This document shows positions 32,551-57,477 of a DNA stretch of 64,000 nucleotides, in pieces. Under the pieces are notes generated by a model, which had not been told where the DNA came from, searched no databases, and saw only the letters and a list, made by a program, of their open reading frames with translations. Both the position numbers and the translations under genes were made by a program. This stretch comes from an uncultured Clostridia bacterium (GTDB taxonomy: Bacteria > Bacillota > Clostridia > Christensenellales > Borkfalkiaceae): positions 1 to 64,000 of the forward strand of contig CANQWX010000002.1 in the NCBI GenBank assembly GCA_947627665.1, read 5' to 3'. Within the stretch, counting starts at the first letter, position 1; every line of letters begins with the position of its first letter.

Positions 32551-32556
32551 TTTTTT

Positions 32557-35386: not shown

Positions 35387-35440
35387 CAAAACCAAAAAAC
35401 CAAAAAACAAAAAGCATTGGAGTGTAAGGAGAAGATAACC

Positions 35441-38400
35441 ATGAAAAGCAGAACGGGAAAAGGGATAAGAGCAGTGCTGGCGAAGCCGTCGGTAAAGTGG
35501 AGCTTGATCCCGATTTTGTTTAGTGCGCTCGTTCTTTCGGCGGTGCTGGGCGGATTGGCGTTCCGTCCCAACAAAGCGTCGGCCGTTGTAAGCGAGCCGC
35601 TTTCAAAATATTTGACGTTCACTTATGTGGAGGAATTGGAATTCCCGGAAGAGGGGACGGGGCAAAAGCACCCCTTGCCCGAGGGCGGTTACGTCATCTC
35701 GGGTTACGTCTACCATGGCAGCGATACGTTCGGGACGTCTACGCAGCCCGCGGTGATCCCCGCGCAGTATAAGGGGCTTCCCGTCGTCGGCATCGAGGCG
35801 GGCGTGTTCTCGGGCGTGCAGACGATCGACTACCTCACGTTCAGCACCATTACGGCGAGCGGCAGCGGCTTGATGGCTTATGCCGATGAAAACATGGCAA
35901 ATCGTCAATCTGCTCACAGCATTATGCCCGATGAATGCAAGCCCTTCGGCACGGCGATCCGCTCCATCGGCGACTATTGCTTCTCCGCCTCCAGCATTAA
36001 AGGCATTACACTCCCCGCGTCCATCGCCAACATCGGCGACGGCGCTTTTACCAACTGCAACAGCCTTACGACGATCCAAAGCTTCAGTGGCTTAAAGGCG
36101 GCGGACGGCACGCCGAATGCTCAAGACGACTTCTCCCAGCTCATGTACTGCAAGCGCTTCGGCTCCAAGTGCTTCATGAACGATACAGTCCTTACGGTCC
36201 ACAATAATGCTCTGCCCGATTTTACCAAGGGCGCCGACGTCGCCGACTACTATCCGATGGGCAAAGGGCTTGAGTGGATCGGTGATACGGGATTTTATCA
36301 AGTCAATTTGACGGGAAATAGTGAAGGTAGCCGCTTTGTCATTCCTGCCTCCTGCAAGAATATCATCGAGGACCCGTTTTATGGCTTTGGCAACAGTGTG
36401 TATGTAACAATAAAGGGCAACCCCGGGGATTATGAATATTATCCTTGGGGGTTTGACGTAAGCAGAATCTCGTGGGCTGGCAACAGCACCGATAGGGTCA
36501 CGGCCGGCAATGCCACTTGGTATTGCAATCCCACGACGGGCATTTTGGGTCCCATAGTGCCTGGCTCGGTAACAAGTACGCATGTTTATATCCCGTCTTC
36601 GGGGAGTTTGATAAATGCTAAGCGCAATATCACCTTCAAGGGAATAGCCTCCGGAGCATTTTCCGGCATAACAGGTATTGAGCGAGTCGACTTCGATGCG
36701 GATGATGGATGGAATACCAGCGGTATCACCGAGATCCCGACGAAATGTTTTTACGGTTGCTCCAATCTTCAGTGGGTCGGCAATATGCCGGATTCCATTG
36801 AAAAAATTGGGGCAATGGTGTTCTATGAAACGGATTTAAGTTTGCTTGGTACAGACAGTCACGGATCAGGCTGGGGCGTCGTAAACCTTCCGAGTAGCTG
36901 TAAGACCGTCGGCTTTTGGGCATTCCACGGGTGCAGAGGTACTGAACCAGATGATGATCACCCAGAGTACGCAACGGATGATGCGGACGGTATTAAAACT
37001 ATAAACGTTTGGGCGAGCGGAACGGCGGAAGAATTCCATATTTCGCAGGCGGCATTTGTCGGTTGTACAAAAATTTCACAGATGACCTTTGAAAACCTTA
37101 CCGACGGCACACCCCGCCAGGTCAACAACCTTGACGGCGAGCGCCCCGAGGAGTGGTCGGTTTGGAAGGACAAGACGTTCCCCTTCGGTTTGAGAAGCGG
37201 GTCAATTCGTTATAGACGCACAAGCAGTGGGGACATCGTCAGCACGGAAACGGCGGTTCATACAGGTAGCAATGCTACATATATCATCTTGTCCGATGAT
37301 GACGGCAATCCGAGCACGGATATTCAGCTCTTAAAATATAACTCTGCCACTTTCCCCGCCACGATTAGCTCCGGCCGCACGACTTACAACGTAAAAAAGA
37401 TCGGCGAGGTGTTAGGTTATAACTATAGCCCTGCTGTGATTTCCAGCGGAGGGAACGTTGTCATTCCCGAAGGCGTAGAGGAGATCGGTTATCAGGCATT
37501 TTTAAGCAGGACTATATCACAATTGAAGTTTCCTACGACCTTGAGAAAGATCGACGATATGGCATTTTCCGGCGCGACGCTCAATTGTAAGCTTGTATTC
37601 CCGGATAGATTGGAATTTATCGGGCTTCGTGCATTTAACGGTGTCACAAATAGCCAAAATAACTCGATCGTCTTTTCGGGTTGGCTCCAAAGTTTGGACG
37701 GCTCCGCGTTCATGAATGCAACATTCAGTAACGTTAAGGACATCTACTATCTCCAATATCGCACGCAGGATTCGGACAACGTGTTCTCTCCGAGCAACGG
37801 CTATTACAAGCGGTACACGGGGGCGCACGCCGCCTCCACCGCGGGCGCGGCAGGCATGAAGGGCGCGCCCACCGTCCACTACATGGACGACTATGTGACC
37901 TACGCCTTCGAACTTGGTACGAACAATTCGGACGATAATCAAGATATAGCGACTACATACAGCACCTATCACCCCGTCGTAGACCATGCCACCAACGAGG
38001 GCAACCACGCCTACGACTCTCCTTACGCTGCCGATTCGGAAACGGGCTTGATGTACATGGTGCCCGTAGAGGAAAAAGACCCCGTGACAGGTGAGTTCCT
38101 CGGTTGGAATGTCAATATCCGCTTCGGCGCGCGCATGATGACGGCAGATCAGGCGAAAGAATACATCTACGACGTTGCACTTGCCAACAGCACGGGCGCA
38201 GAGCTTTACAAATACAACCAAAAAGGCGAAACGGGTGAAAAAGGAGGCGTGAATTTGTCGCAGACCAATCCGACGGCCCCCGGCGACTTCTTCATGGTCT
38301 TTTTGAACGGCGTTTCGGCGTCTTCTACTTATGTGTTCAACATCACATATAGAAATGAGGGCTTGACCAATGCATTAAATGAGGCAAATACCGCCTGGAC

Positions 38401-41400
38401 AAATGGCGGTGGCGACGATAAAATTTTGCCTTATGCCAATGATACCATGACCTTCTTCTCCCGCTTTACCATTTCGGCGGACATCTTTGCCGCGGTGAAC
38501 TTCCAACACGCCCTCACCGATACGCAGTCTATAACGGGCACTCTCCCCGACAAGATGAAGGAGGACGAAGAGCACAAGGCAATGCTCAACACCCGCGAGC
38601 GCAATTATACGCTTTCGGCGGATGGGACAGAGTTTACCGCCGCGTGGGGCGATCCCGCCATTTCCAAAGTGACTTTGCCGAATTCACGCTTCACCCACCC
38701 GAGCGCGGAGTTCATCGGTTGGACCACCGATCCCGCCGTCGGCGGCGTGGTTTGGGCAAGCGCAGTGCCCGACAGCCCGAACTTCTACCCCAAGGACGGC
38801 TCCGAACAGCTGGAAGTCACGCAGGATCAGCTCGATTCGAATAATGAGATCACCGTGTATTCGGTGTTCCGCCTCAAGATCAACAAAAAGGACCCCAAGG
38901 GCGACGGCGAATGGAAGTGGACCTACGGCGATAACCCTTACACGGGCGACCCTGACCAACAATACTTTAGCTTGCCCGTCAACGACCAGATCGCCGCGGG
39001 CAGCCTCACCATGATCCGCATCGACAGCAGCGGCAAGGCGGAAATTGTTAAACCCGTCGTCACTTTCAACGAAGGTATGTTCCGCGATGAGTTCAATAAG
39101 GCTTACAGCCCTTCCACCAACGCGGGCAAATACCTCGTCCTCGCAGGCAATATTGACTCGTTGCCTAATACGGACGCCACAAATTATGACGCTTGGCGCG
39201 ATAATCTTGTGACGTCGATTGGCAGCGGCAATACCTATGTGGTGTCCGAATTCGAAGTCACGCCCGCCGAGCTTGGCACGGGTTCGGAAACAGGCACGGC
39301 GGCAAACAACTCGAAGATCGTTGACAGCGCCGATCTTACCAATCAAAACCTCATCTATAACCGCGAACGGCTTGTCGACGGCATTTCTCTGCAATTCAAC
39401 GCCGACGAAACGCTTTCGCTTGCCTCCGACACCGACTACACCACCAAACTGCTCTATTGGGACGATTCTCAAAGCGGAAAAGAAACGGCGGATTGGAGTA
39501 ACGCCACGTCTTACACCGATAGCACCACGGCGCAAGTTCTTGAACATGTTGAGGACCGCGGCAAATACCGCCTTGTTCTCACTGGCAAAGCGCAAACGGT
39601 CAGCGGCAGCAGCGGCTACGGCTATACCGACGGCAACTACCGCGGCACTTACATCATCGACTTCACCGTCAACCCCGCCAAAATTTCGCTCAATGATATG
39701 AGCAAAACTGAACTCACCTATAACCGCGAGGCGCAGTGGCTCGATGTGCAAGGCGCTGTTCTCAAAAACGAGAGAACGGTCGGCCCCATTACCTACACCG
39801 TGCCGCAACTCAACAACGGCACGGCCCCCGAGTTCGGCGTTTGGTACGAGGCGGAAAACGGCGTCAATATGCAGAGCGGCTTCGACGGAGATACCGAAAC
39901 GAAGAGCCTGCTGCCGTACTATGCCGATAAATACAAGGTCACCGTCATTCTCCTCGGCAACGGGCAGAGGAACTTTACGATGACGGACGGCCATGACAAG
40001 CCTTTCAGCACGGAGGCGCTTACATATGAAGGCACCCCCAACCTTGTGACAAGCGAACCTACGCGCTCGGGCAATGGCTACAACGATTATAAGTGGGAAT
40101 GCAAGTCGCAGCCGCTTTCGGAAAATGTCGCCGCGGGACTCTACGCGAAGACGAGCTTTACGATCACCGCGCGCGAGATCAGCGTCACCCAACGCAACAA
40201 GACCCACGTCTACGACGCCTACGAACACATCGAGGACGCCGCGCAGTTCGAGTTCTATTCCTCCGGCATGACCTTCGACGGCGTGACCTACAACGTCAAT
40301 CTCTACAGCACGCAAGAGGGCGACAACGTTTCCGAGCGCCAGGGCGGCACCCGCGTTGCAACGGTACATATCCTCGGCCTCAATGACTTTCAACCCGACG
40401 ATGCAAAGTTTGAAAATACTACTCCGGGCGGCACGGATACGTCTACCTATTGGAAGATCGGAACCGACAACATGAACGCCTACTACGTCACCTTGGGAAG
40501 CAGCGATACGCACTATTCCTATGCCGATCTCGATAAACTGGACAGCGCCAAAAACGGGGGCGATTCCTATGTGCAGAACAAAGGCACTTACTATGCCGAG
40601 ATCGAACTGCAAACGGGCAACTTCAAGTTTGCAAGCAGCAGTGACTTTACGCCCGTCGAGGACCAGGTAAACGGTCACGTCATTGTGCGCGCCACCTACA
40701 CCATCACGGCGGCGGTCATCGGCATTGCATACAGCTTCTATTCGCAGACCTACGATCCCAAGCGGCGCTTCTATTTCGAGGTCACCCTCACCGATAACAC
40801 CAACGGCCGCACCTACAAGATCGGCTTCACAAAGAAAAACGAGAGCGAGGATGGTTATACGCTCGACGCGCTCGCATATACCACGGAAATCGCTGAACAG
40901 AGCGCTTTGGGAGAAACGAAAAATAGTTTCCATGGCTTGAAGGCAGAGAACTTCTTGTCAACGCTCTCCGTCTATACGCGGACATCAAGCGTTTGGACGA
41001 CAAAGCAAGAGGACGATTTTATGACGCCGACGGAAATAATCTTCAACGACATTTTGCAGAAAGGCGTAAGCGGCCTGCCCGGGCAAAAGGTGGATGAGAT
41101 TGGCAACTATTGGTTGTACGCCGTCCTGAAAGACACAGACAACTACCAGCTCTCCGTTTCGGCCAATGTGCAATCGCTCGGCAATGGCAAGGCGTATGCC
41201 GAAAGTTTCTACATTAACCCCGACAACAGCCACACCGTGAACTTTGTGGCAGGTATTGGAACGACCGAAGCAGGCAACATTACAGATTTCTCCTATCTTG
41301 CCTCTACGCTTCCCGTCACCTATTCCTACATGTCTTTCGGTTCGCAGGTCACTCTGCCCAAAGACCGCCGTATCAGTGTGACGTTTAAGGACGGCTCAGT

Positions 41401-44400
41401 GAACCGTTATCTGCTCGTCGGTTGGACGCGGAAAGCTCCTACCGCCGATACTACCTTTGCCGACGGTTGGCTCTTCAATACGAAGGATGATCTCAGCGGG
41501 CAACAGGATGCGCTCCAGTCTTATCTCCTTGCTATCTTTAAGAGTGGCAATGCGGAACAAGATATTCTGGGCGGTGCAGGCAAGCAGTTCTATACGATTT
41601 CCGATAGCGATACCGAAACGACGTTCGATCTTTACGCGATTTGGGTGCTCGATAACGATGAGAGCGAAAAGCCCGACTGGGAGGAACATTTCAAGCTGGA
41701 GTATAAAACAGGCGCCACGGGCTTTACGGGAGAAGGCGACGGTTGGCCTACCAATGTCGATTCCGTCATGGCGGGTACTTCCGTCACGCTTCAGACGGGA
41801 GGGTATTGGTTGACCAAGCAAGATGGCGACGTGACCCAGCGTTACATACTCTACGGTTGGACGGAGATCTCTTATGATGATGCACTGCGTAGTGTTTCTT
41901 CGACTGACATGTCCCGCTTCACCGATGAATTTGAAAACGGCTATATTTTGAAGAATGCCGATGACATGGCGCTTCTGTATGGCTATATCACCAACCGTCA
42001 GACTTCTTACACCGTTCGTTCGCAAGATGCAAAAGACGGCACGATCACGCTCTATGCGATCTGGGCGCCCGATAACAATAATGACAGCCATCCCGAACTT
42101 GATGCTACGCAGTATACCGTTCTTTACAACGATACCACGAGCGGCAAGGCTATCATGCCCGAAGCCAAGACGGGACCTCACGGCACCCATGTTGCTACCC
42201 TGCAACCTGTCACAGGGGAAAGTAAGAACGACAGAAGCTATTTGACAGACAATGCAGATAAATACATATTCTACGGATGGACGCTCTATAATAGCGGCGA
42301 AATGGCGTATGTTTGCCATGAAGAGGGCGAATTGAAGGGCATTTTGGATGGTACGAGCGCTTTGAAGAGTGCAAGCAATAAGATTTATTACGAACTTGAT
42401 CCAAATGCTCCCACAACTCCGAAGAACGTAAACTATCAGATAAATGCAATCGACGCCAAGGACGGGACCATCAATCTGTACGCAGTTTGGGTATTGGATA
42501 ATAACGAAAACGGTAAGCCCGACTGGGAGGAAACCTCCGCTCAGCTCACCTATCAAAACGATGTGGAGGGTACGGTCGCGTTTATCGAAGGGTATTCCTA
42601 CACGCTGCAAAACTTCCAAGGCAGGGAAGATGAAAAGTTTGACGCCACATTCACCGCGGATGGTCTTAACGTCAAAGAGGGTGTAGCGACAAGCGGCAAG
42701 ATCGTCGACCATGTCCTTCCCGGCAAGGGCTTTGCTCTGCCCGGGCTTGGCAGCGCAAACGAGTATGCGATCAAACGCACGGGCACAGACGGCAATGTTT
42801 ACCTGCTCATCGGTTGGACGACGGCGGGGGGCATGGTCGAAGGTTTCAGCTACGTCTTCCAATATACGAATGGAACGCAGACCCCCGATGAGGTGTACAC
42901 AAAAAATGGGTATCATTACTACGCCGTCGGCGCTTCGTATACCATGCCGAGCGAGGAGGGTGAGACCCTCCATGCGGTTTGGGCAATAGACGGCAACAAC
43001 AACGGCAAGCCCGACTATCAGGAAACCTATCAGGTCACCTTCCAACGCGATGAGGTTGCCGCCGGTGCCGGTTGCACCGTAACTCCTTCTTGGACGGACA
43101 TCACCTATAACAACCAGAATTTGGGGACCGAGCTTCAGTCCCAGACGTCTTCCTATACCCTCACCAAGGGCAAGGATCAGTACATCTTGGTCGGCTTCAC
43201 CACGCAAAAGGGCGAAGAGAACGTCTACTTCGTGGACACTCAACCCACCAAGGACGGTGACTATACCTATGTGGATAGGAACGAGGCTTACATCGTTGCC
43301 GCCAAGGACGACATCGCGGACGGCACGAAAGACAATGCGATCGTATTCTATGCCGTTTGGGGACTTGACGCCAACAAGGACGGCAAGCCCGACTGGAGCA
43401 ACGACAAGTATACGGTGAGCTTCTCGCTCGACCCGCATACGCGTGACGATACGGTCCATCATGTCAACACCGAGGACCAAAAACTGCCCGATATCGTCTA
43501 TAAGGCCTATGAGAACGGCGTATATAGCGATCAATATGACAAAAATCAGGTAGAGATCGGCGATAAGTTCTATTGGAACAATAGCCAATATACCGTAAAG
43601 CATGGCGATGCAGGCGTGCCTTGTATGTATGTGGGCGAGGCGGATTCTGCCGACAGAAAGCACTACATTCTCCTCGGCTGGACCACGAACCACGCCCTCA
43701 CGAACTACCTCTTCGAGAGTTCCGCGCCGCAGTTCACATTTGACACGGGCAACAGCCATACGCTTGCTCTCGAAGATTTGAACGGGAATGCCGTCGAGTT
43801 CTACGCCGTTTGGGCGATCGATATGAACGAAAACGGCACGCCCGACTACGACGATAAGTTTGACATCGCATACAGCCTGAGCGACGGGCTTTATACCGAT
43901 CCTGCTCCCGAGGGGAAGACGGCCAATGTCGAATTGAGCGGTACGCTTCCCGCAGAGCAGAAGGGCCTCGCCGTCGGTGCGACCTACACCCTCGACGGCA
44001 CGTCCTACACGCTCGATGTAAAGAGCAACACCGATTTGCCTACGTCCGAAGAAGGAAAGAATGTTACGCTGAAAGAGGGTGACCATTATATCCTCATGGG
44101 CTGGACCCATCAGATATTCGCCGCCGAAAAAGATAAGGAGAAAGTCTTCTCCGGCTTGTACTTCCCTCAAGACGGCGAGGAGTATAACACGCTGCAAACG
44201 GCGGAGTACTTCTACGGTCTGAACTCCACCTATATCGTTACGCTCGCCCACGACAGCAACAAGGACGGCACGATCACCTTCTATCCGATCTGGGCGCTCG
44301 ACAACAACCACAACGGCACCCCCGACTGGGACGAAAGCAGATACACTCTCACCTATAGCAATAAGGTGTCTTATGCGAGTGGTTCGCTGAAGAATTGGGA

Positions 44401-47400: not shown

Positions 47401-50400
47401 CGTTCCTACCGCGGATTACACCGTAGCGGGCGGAACCTTCACGCTCTACACGCGCTATGTGCAAATTGTCGACGGTCAAAGCGTTGTCACCCTGCGCGCA
47501 GTTTGGGGGATCGACGCGAACAAGAACGGCACGCCCGACTGGAACGACAAGCACTTTGATATCGTCTATAACTATGGCGACTACGAGTCCGAAACGGGCA
47601 CCTTCCCCGAAGGGGACAAGAATTTCCTCGAAGGGCTTACGGTCACGCTCGCGGGCATGGACGGAAGCGGCTATACCATCACCGCGACGAAGGACGGCAA
47701 GCACTATGTGCTCGTCGGTTGGTCGACGAATAGAGTTACCGACGCCCAAACGACGGAGCCGAAGTGGAAGTACGCCGCGGATGGTTGCCTCATGGAGGCG
47801 GGCTACGTCTACACCCTCGACGCGTTCGGGCTTGCGAAGATGGACGAATCGAGCAAAACGGGCACCGTCACCCTCTACGCCGTTTGGGCGGAGGACAACG
47901 AGAGCAACGGCACGGGCGACAAGACCCCCGACTACGCCAACACCTACACGTTGCACTATGCGAACAGCGCGAGCGGCACGCCCGATCCCACTCTGCCCGA
48001 TGATGTAACACCGCTGTCTGTGGGCAATCAGGTCGTCACCGCAAGCGGAACGTATTCGCTCGCCGTAGGGGATAAGCATTACACCCTCATCGGCTGGACG
48101 ACGAAGTCGCTCACGAGCTACCTCTTTGAAGCGGACCCCGGTGCGGACACTTACATCGCAAAACAGGGGCTTTACACCGTTAACGCGGCAGACGCGAACG
48201 AGAGCCACGTCATCACCCTCTACGCCGTTTGGGGCCTGGATATGAACAACGACGGCGAAGGCAACGGCACCCCCGATTGGAGCGAGAACTTCACCCTCCG
48301 CTTTGTGGCGGGCGTGGTCGGCCTCGCAACGGACAGCACGGGGAACAATGCGCTTCCTCAAGATGTGGCGTATACGGGCGAGAACCAAGAGCTGCTGAAA
48401 GAATATTCGCTTCTGCTCAACTACAAGCACTATACCCTGCTCGGCTGGACAAAGACGGCACCCACCTCAGGCGCTCCTTACGTCTATGAATCGAAAGAGG
48501 CGACGACCGGCGCCGCGGGCGTGGGCAATTATACTTACACCCTCGATGTCGCCGACGCGGACGAGAACGGCGTGGTCACCTTCTATGCCGTTTGGGGCAT
48601 CGATAACAACCAAGACGGGCAGGCCGACTACGATCAGAAGTTCGACGTAGAGTACAAGATCGGCAAAACCGCTACGGGCGCGTTGAAGAAGGACGATTAT
48701 CAAGACGAACACGTCAAAGAGGCCTTCCCGACCGAAAAAGATAAGAACGTCGGCGACGAGGTCACCCTTCCCGAGGGCTATACCCTCACCGTGACGGAAG
48801 ACGGCGCAGAGAAGCACTATGTGCTCATGGGCTGGACGCTCACGGCGGACGACTATCTCTGCGGCTCGCTCGAAGATTACATCGCGCAGACGGGCAAACT
48901 GCTCATCTACGGCGCGGGCGCCAAGTATAAGATCGACGATCTTGTCACCAATGCCTCCAAGGCGGCGGAAAGCGGGAACGCGACGGTCACCTTCTATGCG
49001 GTCTGGGGCATCGACGAAGATGAGGACGGCAAAGCGGATTGGGAAACCTACACGGTGGTGTTCGAGAGCCGTTACGGCGAAGACACGGGCGCAGAGCAGC
49101 TCTACGAGATCAGCGGACCTTCGTGGCCGCTCTCCCACTACGGTCTGGCGGCGGATGAAACGACCAACCAGGTCACCGTCACCTACACGGACGGCGGCAA
49201 CTATAAGCTCAGCCTCTACAAGACGACCGCGGAAGGCGTCACCCTTCTCAAACGCTATAAGCTCATGGGCTGGACGCTCACGAACGAGAACAAGGACGAC
49301 GGCGTAACGCACCTCTTCGGCGTTGGAGATCAGGCGGAATATACTGACTTCACCGCGAGCAATTTCTTCCCCGCCAATGACAGAAGCTTCGGGATCGATG
49401 TGAAGTTTGCCGATACGTCCCACTTCATCAAGCTGTACGCCGTTTGGGCGGAGGACAACAACGACAACGGCACGCCCGATTGGGAAGACGAAGAAGCCAC
49501 CGTCACCTTCGCAGATAGCTATAAGACTGCGATCACGGAAGGGGACGGTAAGATCACGGTCACGACCGACGCCGAGGACAATCCTCTCCGCGCGGGCATG
49601 ACGGCGCAAGAACCCGAACTCGCCGCAAGGACGATGACGCAGGACGGCAAGCGCTACATTCTGATCGGCTGGATCGAGGGCGGCTCCGAAAGTAGGCTCC
49701 TCGATACGGCAGAACAGTATGAAGTGATACGGGCCTCGCTGTACGAGAACTCCTACACGCTCCAAAAAGACGAAACAAATGTCACCCTCTATGCCGTCTG
49801 GGCGCTCGACAACGAGAACAACGGCGACGAGAAAGACAAGGGCGACGGCAAGCCCGACTTCTTGCAGACGTACACCCTGCTCTTTGTCAACAAGGCGGCG
49901 ACGGATACGCCCACCTTGCATACGGTCCTCAACCAGGATCCCGACACGACTGTCACCCTGCCCACGGGCTACACCTACGACGCGGCAAGCAAACACTATG
50001 TGCTCGTCGGCTGGACGTTGGACGGCACGCAGGAGAACTATCTCCTCAATGCAGCGCCCGGAGCGGGTTTGCTTGTGGAAGGCCCCGATTACACGATTTC
50101 CTCCAAGGACGCCGTGAAAGTCGACGACAAGTACGTCATCACCTTCTACGCCGTCTGGGGCGAGGACCTCAACAACGACGGCACGGGCAACGGCACGCCC
50201 GACTGGGAGGACGCGAAGTATACCCTCGTCTACGACGTCGAGGGCGCGACGGACGTCACGGCGCCTACGGACGACGGGAAATATCTCAGCGGCACCACGG
50301 TGGAGCTTCTCAAGCCTACGACAACAACGACGAAGGAAGGCGGTGTAAACTATGTGTTCGTCGGTTGGACGACATCCTCCGCGGACGGCTACTTCTTCGA

Positions 50401-53400
50401 AGGCGAACCCACAGTTTCCTTCTACAACATGTTGGGCGGCTCTGCCGAGTATGTTGTGAATGAAGATGACGCCGTAAAGGTCGATGAGAAGAACGTCATC
50501 ACCCTGCATGCCGTCTGGGCGGCGGATAACGAGAACAACGGCGCAGGCAACGGCACGCCCGACTATCTGCAGACCTACACCGTCACGTTTGTCAACGAGA
50601 ACAAAGACGGAAAGACGGTCCCTGCCGATCTTCCTTACACCATCGGCAGCCTCACGGTGGACACTCAGCTCCCGCTCCTTCAGGACTACACCCTCGACGT
50701 GGACGGCAAGCACTATGTGCTCGTCGGCTGGACATTGCAGAGCTTGACAAGTTATCTCATTGAGGCAAAGCCCGAGGACGGTCTGCTTTTGAGCGGCAAA
50801 TTCTATACGGTCGCTTCCAAGGACGCCGTAAAGAATGAGGAAGGCAAGTATGTCATCACTCTGCACGCGGTCTGGGCGATCGATGAAAACCACAGCGATA
50901 CGGCCGACTATTTAGACAATAAGTACACGCTGACCTACCAAAACGGAACGGACGGCACGGTCAAGGGCTGGGAAACGGAAGGATTTACGAAGGTAGTCGA
51001 AAACATCCTCGACGGCACCACGGTCACCTTGTTGGGCAGCTACGACGTCACCCTCGACGTGGACGGCAAGCACTATGTGCTCGTCGGCTGGACGACGGTA
51101 GAAGGTCCGCACAGCTTCATCGCTGCGCCCGATCTCTCTGCCGACGCCTTCTTCGAATGGGGCACGGGCTACACGGTCACGACAAATACCGTTCTCTACG
51201 CCGTGTGGGCTGCCGACAGCGAGAACAACGGCGACGAAACGAAGGGCGATAAGATCCCCGACTACAAGCAGAGCTACACCGTCTTGTTCGTCGATGCGGA
51301 GAACGGCTCCAAAGTGCTCTATACGCTCGAGAACCAGGATGTCAACAGCAGCATCCTCGCACCTTCGGCGAACGCCCTCACCAAGGACGGAAAGCGCTAT
51401 GTGCTCATCGGTTGGACGGTCACGGCGAGCGAAAGCCACATTGTGGATAGCCTCCCGACCGAGGCAGGCTTTGTCGCCGTCAACGGGACTTACAAGCTGC
51501 GTGCGGCAGACGCCGTCAAGAATGGGGACGATTATGTCATCACCCTCTACGCGGTGTGGACGGCCGATGAAAACTCCAACAACGAGGCGGACTACGCCGA
51601 GCCGAAGTACAAGGTGCAGCTCGTCAACGCGACAGACGCGGCGGACGGCAAAATCGAGGGCAAGACGGAAGCGGACCTCTTCGCAACCTTTGAGAACAAT
51701 CTCCGCGGCATGTCCGTCGACATCGACGATTATCACAGCACAAAGGACGCGCAGATCTCGCTCACGGCGGCAGATGGGACCAAATATCTGCTCGTCGGCT
51801 GGACAACGAAGGAGGGCGGCATCTTCAGCAAAGAGAACAAGATGCCCGAAAACGTCACCGTTTACATCGACCTCTACACCGTCAACGCGGCGCACGCCGG
51901 CAAGGATAGAGTCATCAAGCTGTACGCGGTCTGGGGCGTCGACGCCAACAACAACGGCACGGCCGATTGGTCGGAGAACGCCTACCTCGTCAAGCTCGTG
52001 ACGGGCGAAAACAATTCGGTCGGCGCAGCGGTCGGCAGCGCGCTTCCTTACACCTACACCTACCTGCTTACAGACGATGTGATCGATCTGAAAGATCATG
52101 CGACTTGCAGGCTGATCGCGGGCGAGCACACCTATACGATCCTCGGCTGGACCCTCACCGCAGGCACCTACCTCTGCAATTCGCAGGCGGATTATGAAGC
52201 GGTAACGGATGTTCTCACCGAAACTTATACGGTCACCTCTCGCAACGATACGGATAATGATTACGTCATCACGCTGTATGCGGTCTGGGGCGTGGACGAC
52301 AACGCGAACGGTGCAGGCAACGGCACGCCCGACTATGCGGAGAACTTCACGGTAAGCTTCAACGACGGCAGCACGGGCGGTACGACAGAACCCGAAGCGA
52401 TGCCGAAGAGCGAAACCATTTTGGGCGCGGATCTTCTCGACGAGGAGAACAACAAGGTCACGCTCACGCTTGCTTATTCGCTCACGTTGGGCGAAAAGCA
52501 CTACACGCTCATCGGCTGGACGCTCACCGCGCCCACGACCGGTAAGCCCTATCTCTTCGACAAGGCGCCCGGCTTCGTCCTGTACACCGATACCTACACG
52601 GTGCGCGCAAGCGATGTGAACGTCGGCGGCAACACCATCATGCTGTATGCGGTCTGGGGCATCGACGAAAACCAAGACGGTTCGCCCGATTGGAACGACG
52701 TGTTCTCCGTAAGGCTTCATCAGAGCGTTGAGAGCGGCACCGACATCTCGGGGGCGGACGGCCTGTTCGAAGGCATGCACGCCGAGAACCTGCAAGCGGG
52801 CGACGTCGTGACCGATCTCAGGATCAGTTCGGATAGCCCCAAGATCTACCTCGAGGACGGCGGCAGGCACTATGTGCTCGTCGGCTGGACAACGAAGGCG
52901 CCCGAGGCGAACCACCACATCTACGACATCGTGCCGTCGGGGCTGAACCTGCTCAAGGCAAGCTACACCGTTTCGGCAAAGGACGCCGTAAAAGAGAGCG
53001 GTACAAACGTCATCACCCTCTATGCGGTATGGGGCCTTGACAGCGACGACAGCGGCGTTGCCGACTGGGAAGAAACGCTCTACTACGTCGATCTCGTGAA
53101 TAGCATTGACGGCACGCCCGCGGGCGGCATCGCGCTTCCCTACACGCTGAGCGGCCTTCAGAACGGCAAGAGCGTCGTGCTTCTCGCTTCGAACGCGCTC
53201 GAGATCGAAGAGGGCGGCGAGGCCCTCCATTACACCCTCATCGGCTGGCGGCTCAAAGGCCCCGGTGAGATCGTCACGGAAACGCCTACGGCGAACTTCT
53301 ATGCGGCGGGCAGCAGCTACACCGTTTCGGCGACGGACGCGGACAGCGAGGACCACATCGTGTTCTACGCCATCTGGGCGCGGGACGACAACCGCAACGG

Positions 53401-56400
53401 CAAGGCCGACTTTGAGGAAGAGTTCACCGTCGTGTTCTCGAGCGGTACGGATACCGCGTCGGTCACGGGCACCCTTCCCGATGAAGTCCGCGGAAGCGTT
53501 GGCACGGAGGTGCCGCTCACCGCTTCGCTTCAGATCTCCCTCGGCGGCAAGAACTACACCGCCTTCGGCTGGACGCTCTACAACGGCATCTATCTGTATG
53601 AAAACGCTCCGACGGGCAGAGACGCCGAAAAGATCATGCCGATGACGTCAGAGGGCACGGCGGGGGTCTACACCGTGCGTGCGCAGGACGACTTTGACGG
53701 CGACGGGATCATCGAACTGTACGCCGTCTGGGGCATCGACCGCGACGAGGAAGGCAAGGGCGACGGTACGCCCGACTGGCAGGCGACCGAGCTGTACACG
53801 GTCGACTTCGTGCCCGTCGACGGCGCAACGGGCAGCTACACTCTCGACTATAACGGAAAGACGATCTCGCTTGACGACTTCATCCGTATGACCGAGAACA
53901 AGAACAAGAAGCTCGGCGAGAACTTCGGAATGCCTTCCGGCACGCTCTATCTCACGATCGGCTCCAACACCTATCTGTTGCTCGGCTGGACGTACGAGAG
54001 CGGCACCCATCTGTGCACGGAGCTGAACCACCTGCTCGCGCTCAACGGCTACTTCAACAGCGACAACGTCGATCCTTACTATGCGAAGGATCACCTCATC
54101 AAGACGTATGCGGTCTGGGCGGTGGACAACAACCGCGACGGCACGCCCGACTTCTCCCGCAACTTCGCGGTGCACTTCGAAAACGCTACCCCGGGTTCCG
54201 TCATCGACAACGATACGGTCAACGGCGGTATGCCCGACGACGTCGCCGTGCAGGCGGGTATGACGGTCAACCTTGCCGCTTACTCCATCGAAATGGAGCG
54301 CGGCGGCGTCAGCTACACCCTCATCGGTTGGGCGGGCGTGGAGCCGATCGCGGATCCTTACTACGCGTTTGAAACGCCTTCCGCCTTCGAGAGCCTCCGC
54401 ACTACCCTCGGCGACGAGGTGTACACCTCCGCGTACAAGGTAGACCTCACCAAGATGGATTCCGACAGCAAAGTGACGCTGTACGCGATCTGGGGCATCG
54501 ACCAGAACAAGAACGGCATTCCCGATTGGAATGACCTCTTCACCGTCCGCTTCTCCAATATGGAGAACGGCGTTGCGACCAAGATGCCCGAGGAAAAGAC
54601 GGAGCTTTCCGTCAACGACATCGTCGAGCTTGCCTTCGGAACGCTCAGCCTTGACGCAGAGGACGGCGAGCACTATGTGCTCATCGGCTGGACGCTCGAC
54701 ACCCTCGAGAGCTATCTCTTCACCGAAGCGGCTCCCGCAGATTATCTGGAAGCGGGCAGCTCCTATACCGTCGAAGCCAAGGACGCGGTGGGCGTGGACA
54801 TCACTCTCTACGCGGTCTGGGGCAAGGACCACAACGGCAACGGCGTTCCCGATTGGGAAGAGAACTTCTATGAAGTGCAGTTCGTCAACGATGGCGGCGA
54901 TCCGCTCGTGGACGGCGGCGACGAAGAGGTGTTCCGCACGCTCAAAGATCAACTCACGGGCATGGAAGTTTCCCTCGGCGTCAACGGAAACGTCCGCGTT
55001 GAGCACAATGGCGTCCGCTACATCCTCATCGGCTGGACGCTGGAAGAGGCGGAAACCTACTTCTTCGAGGACGAGCCGGAAATCGAGTACTTCGGTCTGT
55101 ACGACAGTTATCTCGTCAATGCGGAGGACGCAAACGACGAGCGCGTCATCACCCTGCATGCCGTCTGGGCGATCGACGGGAACACGAACGACAACCCCGA
55201 CTGGTCGGAGGACTACACCCTCGAATTCCGCACCTTCTACGACAGCGAGAAGCTGATCGAAGACCGCCACGGGCTTCAGGCGAACGACTCCGTCGAACAG
55301 CCTATCATCCGTTCCGTGACCGTGGACGGCAGGAATTACGTCCTCTTCGGCTGGACGCTCGACATTTCGGTCGCGGCCGATCTCTACGTCAGTGCGCCGG
55401 GCGACGCCATCACAAGCAAGCTCGTTTCGTGGCCTTACCTTGTGAAGTTTGCGGACTCCGAATACCGCAAGATCACGATGTACGCGATGTGGGGCATCGA
55501 CAGCAACCGCAACAATATCCCCGACTGGGAGGACGAGTTCACCCTCCGCTTCAACCAGCAGGCGAGCGGTATCTCCGGCCCGATGCCCGAAAATGCGGAA
55601 GGCCTGACGGCGGGCACGACTTACCGCTTCGAACATCATCTGTCCCTGCAATCGGGCGGCGTCACCTACACGCTCATCGCATGGACGCGCGACAGACGCG
55701 ATCCGAAGGGCTTCCTCTACACCGAAGGGTATCCCGAATCGTCCACCAACTATTACGCGGCGAATGTCGAATATCTCGACGGCGACAGGCTCACGAACGC
55801 ATATGTTGTGAACGCGGCGGACGCGGACGGCAGATTCATCGACTTCTACGCGGTATGGGGCATCGATGAGAACGGCAACGGCGTTCCCGACTGGGAAGAC
55901 CCCGTCATCTACTTCATCGATCTGCTCGGCTACGGCGTCGATACGCCTTCCGATCTCCGCTATGTGGCGGGTCAGGACATCAGTCTTCCCGATATGAACC
56001 TCGATCCGCAGTATCTCGAACAGGTCGTCTGGCTTGGCTGGACGCTCGACGCGGGGCTTGGCGGCACGCTCACCGTTTCCTCGCGCGTCCCGTTCCGCAC
56101 ATACCATATCCCCGAGGGAAGCAGACACCTCATCAAGATGTATGCGGTTTGGGGCGTAGACGCAGACATCAAGGGTTGGGTCTATGCCGACGGCGAAGAT
56201 AAGACCTTTGTGGCGCCGCGCGCGCCTGTCACGGGCGAATTCAGGCTCGTGCTCACTAAGGTCACGGGCGATCAGTCGCACATCGACTTCACGCTGGCAA
56301 GCAGCAGCCTCTACGACGCGCTCCTCGAATATCTCACGCCCGATCTCGACGCGGGCAATTGGGAACTTTACGCGGGCGACCGCGCAGACCCGATCGCGGC

Positions 56401-57466
56401 GTTCACCGTCACGCCTCGTGATGTCCATGCCGTGGGCATCGTGGCCAACGACAAGGCATTCGACGGCACGAAGATCGCTACGCTCGATCTCTCGGAGGCG
56501 GGAGTGGCAACGCTCTACTTCAACGACAAGGTGTCCGTGGATTGGGGCGCGCTCGAAGGGACCTTCGAGGACGAGCACGTCGGCACGGATAAGGCCGTGA
56601 CCGTCCGCATCGATCCTTCTAAGATCTTCCTCACGGGCGCAGACGCGACCAACTACAATCTTATCGCAGAAACCATAGATCTGACCGCAACGATCTTCAA
56701 GGCGACGATCGACGCGGGCGGCGGCGACGGTTGGAGCAGGTACCTCAAGGCGCTCGACAAGGTGTACGACGGCAATACGGACGCAGAGATCGAAATTCTC
56801 GGCTACGGTTGGTTGAAAGGCTTCCGCGTCACGGTCACGGGTTACACCGCCCGCTTCGAGGACGAGAACGCCGCCAAGAACAAGCGCGTATTTGTCACGC
56901 TGGAGCTTGCGGGCGAAGACGTGGGCAACATCGAACTGACCGAGATCGTCCTGCGCGCAGAGATCTTCAAGGCGCCCAACGAATGGATCGTGGAATACGG
57001 CAGGGTAGAAAACGGTATCCGCGGTCCCGTGGCGGTCTGGCAGGGACAGGACGAACCCACGGTGGAATTCTTCTACGACTATGAATGCACGCGGCCTCTC
57101 CAAGGCGATCTGAGCGACCAGTTCAGCGGCACCTACTATGCCCGCGTCACCGTCGCGGAAACGCAGAACTGGTACGGGCTGTCGAGCGTGTATGCCGTAG
57201 AGGTGGAAGAGCGCCCGCTCGACATCACCGCATGCGTCATGCTCCTTGTGGCACAGGTCGTGCTGCTCCTGGCGGCGGCGGAAGTCGTGGCGTCCAAGAA
57301 CAGACGGGATAAGGAAGCGCAGGAGGCGGCGGCAGCCGCCGAGGCGGAGAGCGCGGAAGGCGCGGAAGGCGCGGAAGGCGCCGGTACGGACGCTCCCGCG
57401 GGAACGGACGCATCCGCGGGAACGGACGCATCCGCAGGCACGGATAGCGCGGCAAGCGCCGAATAA
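35441..57466 (+). CDS. Giant repetitive surface protein (about 7,341 residues)
   Basis: The start at 35441 is preferred over TTG 35417 because AAGGAG lies just before it and a signal peptide follows. Order of parts: signal peptide (residues 1-49); BspA/LRR_5 repeats (about 60-800, e.g. SIGDYCFSASSIKGITLPASI); a divergent Flg_new-like unit and MBG-like domains (about 950-1930); 39 tandem Flg_new (Listeria-Bacteroides) repeats (about 1932-6907), each with a GKHYVLVGWTT core and ending LYAVWGID, nearly all joined by D-x-N-x-N-G-x-PDW linkers; YDG/MBG-like domains (about 6910-7240, DKVYDGNTDAEI); a membrane helix (about 7260-7283); then KNRRDK and an Ala/Glu/Gly/Thr-rich tail. No LPXTG was seen. 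An adhesin or cell-surface stalk role is inferred. One intact reading frame of 22 kb argues for selection. Antisense frames up to 1,340 codons are by-products of its composition. Confidence 0.93.
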   Translation: MKSRTGKGIRAVLAKPSVKWSLIPILFSALVLSAVLGGLAFRPNKASAVVSEPLSKYLTFTYVEELEFPEEGTGQKHPLPEGGYVISGYVYHGSDTFGTSTQPAVIPAQYKGLPVVGIEAGVFSGVQTIDYLTFSTITASGSGLMAYADENMANRQSAHSIMPDECKPFGTAIRSIGDYCFSASSIKGITLPASIANIGDGAFTNCNSLTTIQSFSGLKAADGTPNAQDDFSQLMYCKRFGSKCFMNDTVLTVHNNALPDFTKGADVADYYPMGKGLEWIGDTGFYQVNLTGNSEGSRFVIPASCKNIIEDPFYGFGNSVYVTIKGNPGDYEYYPWGFDVSRISWAGNSTDRVTAGNATWYCNPTTGILGPIVPGSVTSTHVYIPSSGSLINAKRNITFKGIASGAFSGITGIERVDFDADDGWNTSGITEIPTKCFYGCSNLQWVGNMPDSIEKIGAMVFYETDLSLLGTDSHGSGWGVVNLPSSCKTVGFWAFHGCRGTEPDDDHPEYATDDADGIKTINVWASGTAEEFHISQAAFVGCTKISQMTFENLTDGTPRQVNNLDGERPEEWSVWKDKTFPFGLRSGSIRYRRTSSGDIVSTETAVHTGSNATYIILSDDDGNPSTDIQLLKYNSATFPATISSGRTTYNVKKIGEVLGYNYSPAVISSGGNVVIPEGVEEIGYQAFLSRTISQLKFPTTLRKIDDMAFSGATLNCKLVFPDRLEFIGLRAFNGVTNSQNNSIVFSGWLQSLDGSAFMNATFSNVKDIYYLQYRTQDSDNVFSPSNGYYKRYTGAHAASTAGAAGMKGAPTVHYMDDYVTYAFELGTNNSDDNQDIATTYSTYHPVVDHATNEGNHAYDSPYAADSETGLMYMVPVEEKDPVTGEFLGWNVNIRFGARMMTADQAKEYIYDVALANSTGAELYKYNQKGETGEKGGVNLSQTNPTAPGDFFMVFLNGVSASSTYVFNITYRNEGLTNALNEANTAWTNGGGDDKILPYANDTMTFFSRFTISADIFAAVNFQHALTDTQSITGTLPDKMKEDEEHKAMLNTRERNYTLSADGTEFTAAWGDPAISKVTLPNSRFTHPSAEFIGWTTDPAVGGVVWASAVPDSPNFYPKDGSEQLEVTQDQLDSNNEITVYSVFRLKINKKDPKGDGEWKWTYGDNPYTGDPDQQYFSLPVNDQIAAGSLTMIRIDSSGKAEIVKPVVTFNEGMFRDEFNKAYSPSTNAGKYLVLAGNIDSLPNTDATNYDAWRDNLVTSIGSGNTYVVSEFEVTPAELGTGSETGTAANNSKIVDSADLTNQNLIYNRERLVDGISLQFNADETLSLASDTDYTTKLLYWDDSQSGKETADWSNATSYTDSTTAQVLEHVEDRGKYRLVLTGKAQTVSGSSGYGYTDGNYRGTYIIDFTVNPAKISLNDMSKTELTYNREAQWLDVQGAVLKNERTVGPITYTVPQLNNGTAPEFGVWYEAENGVNMQSGFDGDTETKSLLPYYADKYKVTVILLGNGQRNFTMTDGHDKPFSTEALTYEGTPNLVTSEPTRSGNGYNDYKWECKSQPLSENVAAGLYAKTSFTITAREISVTQRNKTHVYDAYEHIEDAAQFEFYSSGMTFDGVTYNVNLYSTQEGDNVSERQGGTRVATVHILGLNDFQPDDAKFENTTPGGTDTSTYWKIGTDNMNAYYVTLGSSDTHYSYADLDKLDSAKNGGDSYVQNKGTYYAEIELQTGNFKFASSSDFTPVEDQVNGHVIVRATYTITAAVIGIAYSFYSQTYDPKRRFYFEVTLTDNTNGRTYKIGFTKKNESEDGYTLDALAYTTEIAEQSALGETKNSFHGLKAENFLSTLSVYTRTSSVWTTKQEDDFMTPTEIIFNDILQKGVSGLPGQKVDEIGNYWLYAVLKDTDNYQLSVSANVQSLGNGKAYAESFYINPDNSHTVNFVAGIGTTEAGNITDFSYLASTLPVTYSYMSFGSQVTLPKDRRISVTFKDGSVNRYLLVGWTRKAPTADTTFADGWLFNTKDDLSGQQDALQSYLLAIFKSGNAEQDILGGAGKQFYTISDSDTETTFDLYAIWVLDNDESEKPDWEEHFKLEYKTGATGFTGEGDGWPTNVDSVMAGTSVTLQTGGYWLTKQDGDVTQRYILYGWTEISYDDALRSVSSTDMSRFTDEFENGYILKNADDMALLYGYITNRQTSYTVRSQDAKDGTITLYAIWAPDNNNDSHPELDATQYTVLYNDTTSGKAIMPEAKTGPHGTHVATLQPVTGESKNDRSYLTDNADKYIFYGWTLYNSGEMAYVCHEEGELKGILDGTSALKSASNKIYYELDPNAPTTPKNVNYQINAIDAKDGTINLYAVWVLDNNENGKPDWEETSAQLTYQNDVEGTVAFIEGYSYTLQNFQGREDEKFDATFTADGLNVKEGVATSGKIVDHVLPGKGFALPGLGSANEYAIKRTGTDGNVYLLIGWTTAGGMVEGFSYVFQYTNGTQTPDEVYTKNGYHYYAVGASYTMPSEEGETLHAVWAIDGNNNGKPDYQETYQVTFQRDEVAAGAGCTVTPSWTDITYNNQNLGTELQSQTSSYTLTKGKDQYILVGFTTQKGEENVYFVDTQPTKDGDYTYVDRNEAYIVAAKDDIADGTKDNAIVFYAVWGLDANKDGKPDWSNDKYTVSFSLDPHTRDDTVHHVNTEDQKLPDIVYKAYENGVYSDQYDKNQVEIGDKFYWNNSQYTVKHGDAGVPCMYVGEADSADRKHYILLGWTTNHALTNYLFESSAPQFTFDTGNSHTLALEDLNGNAVEFYAVWAIDMNENGTPDYDDKFDIAYSLSDGLYTDPAPEGKTANVELSGTLPAEQKGLAVGATYTLDGTSYTLDVKSNTDLPTSEEGKNVTLKEGDHYILMGWTHQIFAAEKDKEKVFSGLYFPQDGEEYNTLQTAEYFYGLNSTYIVTLAHDSNKDGTITFYPIWALDNNHNGTPDWDESRYTLTYSNKVSYASGSLKNWEETSGAFLREEEDLLSGTLKLAGKVEGGYVTMTRYNTTEPTYMLIGWTADSAQPEDYYVFTGGSDPRTHYGVGYYAVGDEYTLTSDITFYAIWAADVNKNEIPDYLEDFTVTFEWGATSVTGSLPATEPSYKLGSSVTTALPDGAEKPYVTHNEVKYVLMGWTTTQGEHWIDLENHTSTAFTGLEKYCAIGENYVVDAADAESVDGKNVITLYAVWGIDENEDDTPDFNEGNYTVLFDVLPEDTNGTITPDLTDSTVVGQMTGSTVATPGSYTLDSSSNSLTITEGANAGHYVLLGWTRSLEKDLLVKSATPDNGTLSYFTENYKGFIVAGTDYKVLSSDDADDGKKDEIITFYAVWGIDANGDGTEDWNDRTFTLAFKLGDSTTGTVKGAVYDTESGTFNITTYRGNADGKDDEATSETQFRVGDYAYWSNTYTADNVGSGENPGEVGKNYRIIIDGKEYVLIGWTIEKTLTDGHVFTNRPTFTESNAALERYQFTTKADVTLYALWGIDANGNYVPDYNEQFHIDYENKATGKLVEPDEHFPDIDEDVTHHVGENVTLHEKQLHFTAEGKHYVLVGWTKDSAAETYLWDSAPADTRGMYNLGATYIITPDDGKSITDAAKVENVIFYAVWGIDQNQNDVPDYAEKFSVAFENATGVTFSGVTFMPDTQVNLNVGDSATDPIKGGVFRATFNESNYVLVGWTTINNTAKKYLWTRKNAGIETNPENFYERYKSEYGESSFFYYAKAGEVVGKNPYIVNAADASKENVITLYAVWAIDENENGRPDFEDFDRYEVKFTVLAPEDANPDITESTLPDRLADTDITLPEKNGDDKLYSFDVTQDGVKKHYLLVGWVSDQEWKTESATSEKLLYSNNPINALDHYYAAGVTYRLDVDKLSTTDPDDEYKHTITFYAVWAIDNEDGGTGDGIPDYLQEYTLRYENAAGGTNSPADLPYTIGGQKVEAAIKTRSNYSLTKDDKTYTLLGWTAVELTGGYLLDDESDVPTADYTVAGGTFTLYTRYVQIVDGQSVVTLRAVWGIDANKNGTPDWNDKHFDIVYNYGDYESETGTFPEGDKNFLEGLTVTLAGMDGSGYTITATKDGKHYVLVGWSTNRVTDAQTTEPKWKYAADGCLMEAGYVYTLDAFGLAKMDESSKTGTVTLYAVWAEDNESNGTGDKTPDYANTYTLHYANSASGTPDPTLPDDVTPLSVGNQVVTASGTYSLAVGDKHYTLIGWTTKSLTSYLFEADPGADTYIAKQGLYTVNAADANESHVITLYAVWGLDMNNDGEGNGTPDWSENFTLRFVAGVVGLATDSTGNNALPQDVAYTGENQELLKEYSLLLNYKHYTLLGWTKTAPTSGAPYVYESKEATTGAAGVGNYTYTLDVADADENGVVTFYAVWGIDNNQDGQADYDQKFDVEYKIGKTATGALKKDDYQDEHVKEAFPTEKDKNVGDEVTLPEGYTLTVTEDGAEKHYVLMGWTLTADDYLCGSLEDYIAQTGKLLIYGAGAKYKIDDLVTNASKAAESGNATVTFYAVWGIDEDEDGKADWETYTVVFESRYGEDTGAEQLYEISGPSWPLSHYGLAADETTNQVTVTYTDGGNYKLSLYKTTAEGVTLLKRYKLMGWTLTNENKDDGVTHLFGVGDQAEYTDFTASNFFPANDRSFGIDVKFADTSHFIKLYAVWAEDNNDNGTPDWEDEEATVTFADSYKTAITEGDGKITVTTDAEDNPLRAGMTAQEPELAARTMTQDGKRYILIGWIEGGSESRLLDTAEQYEVIRASLYENSYTLQKDETNVTLYAVWALDNENNGDEKDKGDGKPDFLQTYTLLFVNKAATDTPTLHTVLNQDPDTTVTLPTGYTYDAASKHYVLVGWTLDGTQENYLLNAAPGAGLLVEGPDYTISSKDAVKVDDKYVITFYAVWGEDLNNDGTGNGTPDWEDAKYTLVYDVEGATDVTAPTDDGKYLSGTTVELLKPTTTTTKEGGVNYVFVGWTTSSADGYFFEGEPTVSFYNMLGGSAEYVVNEDDAVKVDEKNVITLHAVWAADNENNGAGNGTPDYLQTYTVTFVNENKDGKTVPADLPYTIGSLTVDTQLPLLQDYTLDVDGKHYVLVGWTLQSLTSYLIEAKPEDGLLLSGKFYTVASKDAVKNEEGKYVITLHAVWAIDENHSDTADYLDNKYTLTYQNGTDGTVKGWETEGFTKVVENILDGTTVTLLGSYDVTLDVDGKHYVLVGWTTVEGPHSFIAAPDLSADAFFEWGTGYTVTTNTVLYAVWAADSENNGDETKGDKIPDYKQSYTVLFVDAENGSKVLYTLENQDVNSSILAPSANALTKDGKRYVLIGWTVTASESHIVDSLPTEAGFVAVNGTYKLRAADAVKNGDDYVITLYAVWTADENSNNEADYAEPKYKVQLVNATDAADGKIEGKTEADLFATFENNLRGMSVDIDDYHSTKDAQISLTAADGTKYLLVGWTTKEGGIFSKENKMPENVTVYIDLYTVNAAHAGKDRVIKLYAVWGVDANNNGTADWSENAYLVKLVTGENNSVGAAVGSALPYTYTYLLTDDVIDLKDHATCRLIAGEHTYTILGWTLTAGTYLCNSQADYEAVTDVLTETYTVTSRNDTDNDYVITLYAVWGVDDNANGAGNGTPDYAENFTVSFNDGSTGGTTEPEAMPKSETILGADLLDEENNKVTLTLAYSLTLGEKHYTLIGWTLTAPTTGKPYLFDKAPGFVLYTDTYTVRASDVNVGGNTIMLYAVWGIDENQDGSPDWNDVFSVRLHQSVESGTDISGADGLFEGMHAENLQAGDVVTDLRISSDSPKIYLEDGGRHYVLVGWTTKAPEANHHIYDIVPSGLNLLKASYTVSAKDAVKESGTNVITLYAVWGLDSDDSGVADWEETLYYVDLVNSIDGTPAGGIALPYTLSGLQNGKSVVLLASNALEIEEGGEALHYTLIGWRLKGPGEIVTETPTANFYAAGSSYTVSATDADSEDHIVFYAIWARDDNRNGKADFEEEFTVVFSSGTDTASVTGTLPDEVRGSVGTEVPLTASLQISLGGKNYTAFGWTLYNGIYLYENAPTGRDAEKIMPMTSEGTAGVYTVRAQDDFDGDGIIELYAVWGIDRDEEGKGDGTPDWQATELYTVDFVPVDGATGSYTLDYNGKTISLDDFIRMTENKNKKLGENFGMPSGTLYLTIGSNTYLLLGWTYESGTHLCTELNHLLALNGYFNSDNVDPYYAKDHLIKTYAVWAVDNNRDGTPDFSRNFAVHFENATPGSVIDNDTVNGGMPDDVAVQAGMTVNLAAYSIEMERGGVSYTLIGWAGVEPIADPYYAFETPSAFESLRTTLGDEVYTSAYKVDLTKMDSDSKVTLYAIWGIDQNKNGIPDWNDLFTVRFSNMENGVATKMPEEKTELSVNDIVELAFGTLSLDAEDGEHYVLIGWTLDTLESYLFTEAAPADYLEAGSSYTVEAKDAVGVDITLYAVWGKDHNGNGVPDWEENFYEVQFVNDGGDPLVDGGDEEVFRTLKDQLTGMEVSLGVNGNVRVEHNGVRYILIGWTLEEAETYFFEDEPEIEYFGLYDSYLVNAEDANDERVITLHAVWAIDGNTNDNPDWSEDYTLEFRTFYDSEKLIEDRHGLQANDSVEQPIIRSVTVDGRNYVLFGWTLDISVAADLYVSAPGDAITSKLVSWPYLVKFADSEYRKITMYAMWGIDSNRNNIPDWEDEFTLRFNQQASGISGPMPENAEGLTAGTTYRFEHHLSLQSGGVTYTLIAWTRDRRDPKGFLYTEGYPESSTNYYAANVEYLDGDRLTNAYVVNAADADGRFIDFYAVWGIDENGNGVPDWEDPVIYFIDLLGYGVDTPSDLRYVAGQDISLPDMNLDPQYLEQVVWLGWTLDAGLGGTLTVSSRVPFRTYHIPEGSRHLIKMYAVWGVDADIKGWVYADGEDKTFVAPRAPVTGEFRLVLTKVTGDQSHIDFTLASSSLYDALLEYLTPDLDAGNWELYAGDRADPIAAFTVTPRDVHAVGIVANDKAFDGTKIATLDLSEAGVATLYFNDKVSVDWGALEGTFEDEHVGTDKAVTVRIDPSKIFLTGADATNYNLIAETIDLTATIFKATIDAGGGDGWSRYLKALDKVYDGNTDAEIEILGYGWLKGFRVTVTGYTARFEDENAAKNKRVFVTLELAGEDVGNIELTEIVLRAEIFKAPNEWIVEYGRVENGIRGPVAVWQGQDEPTVEFFYDYECTRPLQGDLSDQFSGTYYARVTVAETQNWYGLSSVYAVEVEERPLDITACVMLLVAQVVLLLAAAEVVASKNRRDKEAQEAAAAAEAESAEGAEGAEGAGTDAPAGTDASAGTDASAGTDSAASAE
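41236..56160 (+). repeat. Array of 39 Flg_new-type protein repeats with Ca-loop-like linkers
   Basis: Counting the LYAVWGID-type ends gives 39 units averaging about 128 residues (about 383 bp); 38 are followed by a D-x-(N/D)-x-(N/D)-x-x-x-D-(W/Y/F) linker. DNA copies have diverged, but short identical blocks remain, for example 45 bp shared by 50689-50733 and 51049-51093. Confidence 0.9.
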
Positions 57467-57477
57467 AAAACAAAGAG

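Follow-up and report, generated by a model that had tools for sequence, protein, structure and literature searches.

A giant membrane-anchored protein from an uncultured Clostridia bacterium as a candidate fibrillar adhesin, with calcium-type loops along its stalk and an apparently exchanged tip

Huge proteins are known from bacteria in general (PMC11573180), and giant adhesins of a size similar to the one described here have been reported (PMC10619420, PMC12863079); giant bacterial proteins are easily dismissed as annotation noise. The RTX adhesins (MpAFP/MpIBP, MhLap, SiiE) consist of tandem beta domains with acidic calcium linkers and a distant head, and the linker Ca2+ stiffens the tandem (PMC7493085, PMC4083281). 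In the Periscope Proteins, such as Sgo_0707 with its SHIRT stalk, a tandem stalk likewise projects an N-terminal binding domain (PMC8201768, PMC9704523). Flg_new domains are known in adhesin-like proteins of the gut (PMC9723798). Here we describe a giant gene (35441..57466, + strand) in a stretch of 64,000 nucleotides, hereafter the window, of contig CANQWX010000002.1 (assembly GCA_947627665.1) from an uncultured Clostridia bacterium of the Borkfalkiaceae. We read its product, with modest confidence, as a single-chain fibrillar adhesin of a gut bacterium, with a calcium-stiffened stalk and an exchangeable leucine-rich repeat (LRR) tip.

The giant protein resembles the RTX adhesins in its tandem beta domains, acidic segments and predicted distant head. 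It differs in that its units are B-repeat-like and not Ig-like or other beta-sandwich domains, and in that it bears a signal and membrane segments, whereas those adhesins belong to Gram-negatives and use type I secretion; no RTX family appeared in the Pfam scan of the giant protein, and a chain ending in a membrane segment and a tail falls outside that group. It belongs to the size class of the 7,651-residue adhesin of Mobiluncus mulieris, which also has a proposed surface role but is built of 51 cross-linked Ig-like domains (PMC10619420). Giant1-5 of Apilactobacillus kunkeei, a bacterium with a small genome, are likewise extracellular and very large, but they come from lactic acid bacteria and have beta-solenoid heads (PMC12863079). 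Protein P0003 (7,743 aa) carries Flg_new-like units followed by DxNxNGxPDY segments, as in the giant; unlike the giant it ends in SLH domains, and its identity is 24% over 46% of the query.

The gene is one open frame of 7,341 codons plus a stop, encoding 7,341 aa, as an earlier note made from these letters had read it (an intact 22-kb gene for about 7,341 residues). Read directly, a ribosome-binding site AAGGAG (35426..35431) lies 9 bases ahead of the ATG; an alternative in-frame TTG at 35417 would give 7,349 aa. The protein (~806 kDa) is very acidic, with a pI of 4.3 and a net charge of about -583 at pH 7. Hydropathy reveals two strongly hydrophobic segments, one of a probable signal peptide (aa 22-40, 35504..35560) and a C-terminal membrane segment (aa 7262-7280, 57224..57280), which are predicted to provide the export signal and envelope anchor of a fibrillar adhesin and agree with the membrane-anchored chain proposed in the earlier note. 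The segment is followed by a tail, basic then Ala/Glu/Gly-rich, with short tandem repeats (aa 7281-7341, 57281..57463).

Only two Pfam families match the giant protein above their cut-offs: LRR_5 (E 4.1e-31), on its N-terminal part, and YDG (E 7e-16), close to the C-terminus. The head (aa 41-1200, 35561..39040), delimited by the LRR_5 match and by homologues, comprises the leucine-rich region, with its best stretch at aa 672-771, and the domains that follow it; the BspA repeats seen earlier are thereby recovered. For the MBG-like domains also named then, YDG is the sole support from Pfam; no Pfam match was obtained between the LRRs and the stalk, a stretch that includes the neck (aa 1240-1950, 39158..41290). 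Parts of this stretch match proteins P0006 and P0007, both of which carry MBG_2, and the giant of genome G047 (24-29%); the neck is 29-34% identical to the giants of relatives G049, G133 and G138. The stalk (aa 1957-6911, 41309..56173), defined by unit patterns and by the fold of three units, holds 39 B-repeat-like units of 93-164 aa, giving the tandem folded domains of a fibrillar adhesin; 35 aligned units share Y...GW...AVW and a trailing acidic segment. The membrane-proximal part (aa 6912-7261, 56174..57223), with the YDG domain(s), is 66, 59, 51, 45 and 42% identical to five relatives of the same genus. NCBIfam returned only adhesin_HupY on the giant (39.5 bits, cut-off 1250), neither the unit profile nor the anchor profile had a match among PDB sequences, and a head model from three sequences had low confidence (pLDDT 44.7).

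Structure prediction of representative repeats, proposed earlier as a check, gave a confident AlphaFold2 model of three units (pLDDT 93.1) from alignment A4, whose 32 rows (the query and 31 out of 97 ranges) do not overlap; alignment A3, with all 97 rows, was rejected because overlapping rows were out of register. In the VIA structure comparison the five best matches of the unit model were all InlB B-repeats (68-72 residues, 1.9 Å), the mucus-binding MUB repeat being also among the fold matches; no other family was prominent in the match list, where absence is no proof. With Foldseek, the best match and the only one below E 0.001 was the SHIRT stalk tandem. As modelled, the units thus appear to have the beta-grasp-type B-repeat fold. 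The count of 39 repeats given in the earlier note stands; their assignment to Flg_new is supported by the modelled fold, the solved Flg_new fold being that of the InlB B-repeat (PF09479; PDB 2y5p, 7nms), and moderately by profile (probability 74% over 47/66 columns against eight Flg_new domains of the same genome), but not by Pfam, whose Flg_new model matches none of the 39 units above cut-off. Elsewhere in the genome this model has 36 matches, none on the giant's contig.

An acidic segment trails the AVW-type motif in 38 of the 39 units, the last lacking one (first at aa 2071, last at aa 6809; 41651..55900). Of these segments, 28 are canonical D-x-N-x-N-G-x-P-D-W-x-E, nine have insertions and one is degenerate. 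EF-hand and TSP3 loops space their ligands in this way, at positions 1, 3, 5, 9 and 12. Canonical loops were defined in the window by D at 1 and 9, P/A/E at 8 and W/Y/F at 10, and comparison with the G138 homologue was confined to the 23 that align with it over their full length, five of the 28 being dropped; this stricter set supersedes an earlier comparison of 25 aligned loops. Identity at the would-be ligand positions 1, 3, 5, 9 and 12 holds in 23, 22, 22, 23 and 20 of 23 loops (110/115), against 6, 6, 8 and 9 of 23 at the non-ligand positions 2, 4, 7 and 11 (29/92). Positions 6, 8 and 10 (15, 16 and 20 of 23) were placed in neither group, 8 and 10 having belonged to the window's own search pattern. 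Mean identity to G138 over all aligned unit positions is 53.5%. The would-be acidic ligands are thus under constraint, as in an EF-hand/TSP3-type loop, and from this sequence pattern we infer that the loops after nearly every stalk unit bind calcium. A loop frequency table with the pattern fixed at positions 1, 3, 5 and 9 is self-conditioned and is not used as evidence.

The loop sets the giant's unit apart from plain Flg_new: it is lacking in 8/8 such domains examined of the 36 in the genome. Among the 391 genomes searched, a further 10 from Clostridia encode loop-bearing units, on frames that measure 2,036 to 10,597 aa; in the five of these loci that were read the loop is present on only some units. 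A three-unit structure would therefore inform many surface proteins of gut bacteria. No account of a calcium loop between B-repeats turned up in our searches of open-licence literature. A second protein of the same genome (G000:C9:39351-43262, - strand, a 3,021-aa frame) has roughly nine weaker units, of which only some bear the loop, and two frames with related units from other families of the class (G246:C3, G192:C2) reach 10,245 and 10,597 aa.

A search of 103 genomes of the genus with the unit profile gave matches in 8, counting that of the window, at a threshold of E 1e-10. G138 carries a complete homologue of 7,513 aa (P0002) within a 138-kb contig. The frame in G133, whose true start is not settled, is open over 11,419 aa and contains 61 loops, and that in G049 (7,300 aa) ends at the contig end, so that the protein has at least 7,300 aa. 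In G142 a single giant gene seems to be divided between the ends of two contigs; G060 has a 2,124-aa frame at the same locus, G140 a contig-end fragment and G006 a 2,787-aa frame with a few units. The 39 units of the window have 26 reciprocal best partners in G138, all consecutive and in order, 28 in G049 (26 in order), 20 in the C-terminal piece of G142 (20/20 in order) and 13 in its N-terminal piece (11 in order), 22 in G133 (15 in order) and 10 in G060 (8 in order); such counts shift slightly with the unit pattern used (29 or 28 for G049). Because the same-locus homologue of 7,513 aa is complete and 26/39 units pair one-to-one in unbroken order, an assembly artefact, which the earlier note had feared, is unlikely, and the homologue of at least 7,300 aa tells the same way; the single open giant frame is confirmed. 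The ratios dN/dS to G138 are 0.36 and 0.30 in two stalk stretches and 0.23 near the anchor, values that are rough because dS is 1.1-1.2, and together with the colinear homologues in other genomes they make the giant more than chance. A 'length ruler' reading of the sizes 7,341, 7,513, 7,872 and 7,873 aa was ruled out by the same-locus frames of 2,124 aa (G060) and 11,419 aa (G133).

Within the window protein the units are only about 35% alike, adjacent (38 pairs; mean 34.7%, maximum 46%) or not (703 pairs), and the array is therefore old and not of the Periscope type, in which repeats are highly identical and fast-varying. Between species, the 26 one-to-one, in-order units are about 55% identical, as if each had a fixed address. 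In G142 a block duplication (g16-20 against g21-25, 57-75% identity) has added five units. Identity of matched units climbs toward the membrane, with a Spearman coefficient of 0.69 against G138 (28 units, w11-w38) and 0.60 against G049 (29 reciprocal best units). From the G138 gradient w01-w04 (29-43%), which fit the trend, w05-w10, where the alignment was broken, and w39 (48%), which runs opposite to it, had been dropped. The outer part of the fibre varies most, as expected of a fibre whose tip meets a changing target.

Giants of several relatives lie at the same locus. A metallo-beta-lactamase-fold protein (Pfam; 31220..32110, +) has homologues upstream in G138, G142, G133 and G060, as has a protein without Pfam match (32151..32897, +) in the stretches of the same four genomes. 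RNase Y (Pfam; 57705..59321, +), the downstream neighbour, is kept in four relatives, directly 3' of the giant gene in G138, G142, G060 and G140; in G133 it lies on another contig, with none in the 4 kb behind the giant gene, and in G049 the contig stops just behind it. The locus is thus common on both sides to G138, G142 and G060, and on one side to G133.

The head has another kinship. Searched at E 1e-8, aa 40-1150 of the window protein had no match in G138, G049, G142, G133 or G060, and the heads of G138, G142, G133 and G049 are interrelated at 26-41%. Instead, over about 1,110 residues, it matches giants with other stalks: those of G047 (a 10,048-aa frame, 42%), P0006 (7,872 aa, 41%), G008 (cut, 39%) and P0007 (7,873 aa, 37%). 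In the three of these with a C-terminus (G047, P0006, P0007) the last ~130 residues also match (36-39%). No loop-bearing units were found in P0006 or P0007, for which Pfam MBG_2 is precomputed, and G047 gave no unit match even at E 1e-3; in the two stretches searched, the G047 giant has none of the window's flanking genes. At E 1e-30 the head occurs in only 4/103 genomes of the genus, its own included. The closer kin switch from LRR-headed to same-locus giants, by binned identities, at aa 1200-1320 (39038..39400). Because the head matches giants with other stalks and not those of the same locus, while the flanking genes mark the locus as the same, the tip appears to have been exchanged on a retained stalk, and tip and stalk look like exchangeable modules. 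This apparent exchange and the calcium-type loop behind nearly every unit are features absent from the earlier reading.

In the mechanism that we propose, by analogy to the linker Ca2+ of RTX adhesins, the chain would leave the cell by the Sec route and be held by its C-terminal helix, and a Ca2+ ion in each EF-hand/TSP3-type loop would tie one B-repeat-like domain to the next. Stiff in calcium, the stalk would hold the LRR head away from the cell. At spacings borrowed from other adhesins and not taken from the model (4.5 nm per domain in MpAFP, PMC7493085, PMC4083281; 71 nm per 15 MBG_2 repeats in CdrA, PMC9704523), 39 units at 4.5-4.7 nm would extend about 175-185 nm (~0.18 μm). The head, which lies at the far end and is kept in other giants, is predicted to be adhesive and would bind a ligand on host, mucus, plant fibre or another microbe; lineages would change ligand by recombining another head onto the stalk, and reach by gain or loss of unit blocks. 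Adhesion, one of the roles suggested earlier, is thus likely as the function of such an outreaching chain, whereas nothing beyond the general anatomy was found to speak for or against predation defence and substrate capture. More tentatively, the giants may form a class of gut Clostridia fibres that are calcium-locked and conserved across species, with fixed unit addresses, the membrane-proximal units being most conserved and the tips swapped at an unchanged locus. If so, heads are common to a second giant class with unrelated stalks, and the scaffold would combine interchangeable tips with a soft/stiff switch set by gut calcium. Already, one giant gene is traceable across species at one locus, with testable calcium stiffening and a natural tip-exchange experiment.

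Several observations complicate our reading. At about aa 960-1200 the head ends in a part that is weakly similar to a stalk unit, and the neck has weak matches to P0006, P0007 and G047; a neck search found nothing among 687 candidates, which says little since relatives exist. The assembly has 46 contigs and is 89% complete, and in G049, G142 and G140 the related genes are interrupted by the end of a contig, as they might be if the combination of head and stalk were a metagenome chimera or the repeat number wrong. We hold this very improbable, as both flanks are those of the relatives' locus, the frame is unbroken across the junction and the stalk contains few long exact repeats (six repeated 40-mers). 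No Pfam calcium family matches the giant gene, and TSP3_bac (PF18884), matched in 2/14 control genomes, has 0 matches in this genome, in keeping with loops that are mere Asp/Asn/Gly turns without calcium binding. Such turns would hardly account for ligand positions identical in 110/115 cases against 29/92 at four non-ligand positions, and we regard them as improbable.

The stalk units might themselves form a multivalent surface that binds mucin, polysaccharide or host receptors, and the head would then add a further binding site. Neighbours that differ (mean 34.7%) while each unit is kept in place between species would suit selected binding sites, and both the MUB repeat and the InlB B-repeat are among the fold matches. 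Divergent neighbours are, however, also used by large multidomain proteins against misfolding (PMC8201768), and the conserved loop residues are ligand-spaced acids and not a surface patch; a multivalent stalk is rather unlikely, if by no means far-fetched. That the chain is a passive charged coat, spacing the cell from phages, predators or neighbours with a minor role for the tip, is suggested by its charge of about -583 and by lengths that vary widely among relatives. It seems most implausible for a protein whose LRR head is kept at 37-42% over ~1,110 residues on other stalks, which suggests that the tip is functional. A calcium-stiffened stalk bearing an exchangeable tip remains our preferred account.

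The giant gene probably stands alone, because it has its own promoter-like pair, a hairpin behind its stop and a downstream neighbour, RNase Y, with its own perfect promoter-like pair (57593-57621). The sigma-70-type site TTGACA-18-TATAAT (34785..34814, +) lies 627 nt before the ATG and has 12/12 consensus bases; two such sites were found in the stretch against 0.4 in shuffles, a pattern that by itself is no evidence of function. The hairpin with its T run (57472..57513, +; -37.9 kcal/mol, z -6.2) is a probable terminator, although the terminator pattern scan listed none. Rfam and tRNA scans of the window found nothing. Immediately upstream, a gene of the tyrosine phosphatase family (33174-34376, +) has no homologue in the relatives' stretches searched.

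Further LRR_5 proteins are encoded nearby: one at 29223-31082 (+; E 5e-62), whose homologue in G138 (59%) lies upstream of the giant gene there, and, beyond RNase Y, an adjacent pair of closely similar ones whose N-terminus is lipobox-like (59854-61479 and 61628-62680, both -). Other giant frames of the genus with a related C-terminus (G047:C10, G056:C11, G134:C2, G128:C2) measure 7,828 to 10,048 aa. Third-position GC climbs along the giant gene, its first half having 0.55-0.75 and its second 0.75-0.84, and there are long antisense frames of up to 1,340 aa. The sequence CATTCCGAGCGTAGTCGAGGAATC is a dispersed repeat that occurs, with near copies, at 26916, 34918 and 35180, two of the copies being downstream of the promoter-like site and ahead of the giant gene's start; at ≤2 mismatches it has 16 places in the genome, against 0 for the reversed control. 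At 12658-12827, an 81-bp unit is present in two tandem copies with 97% matches.
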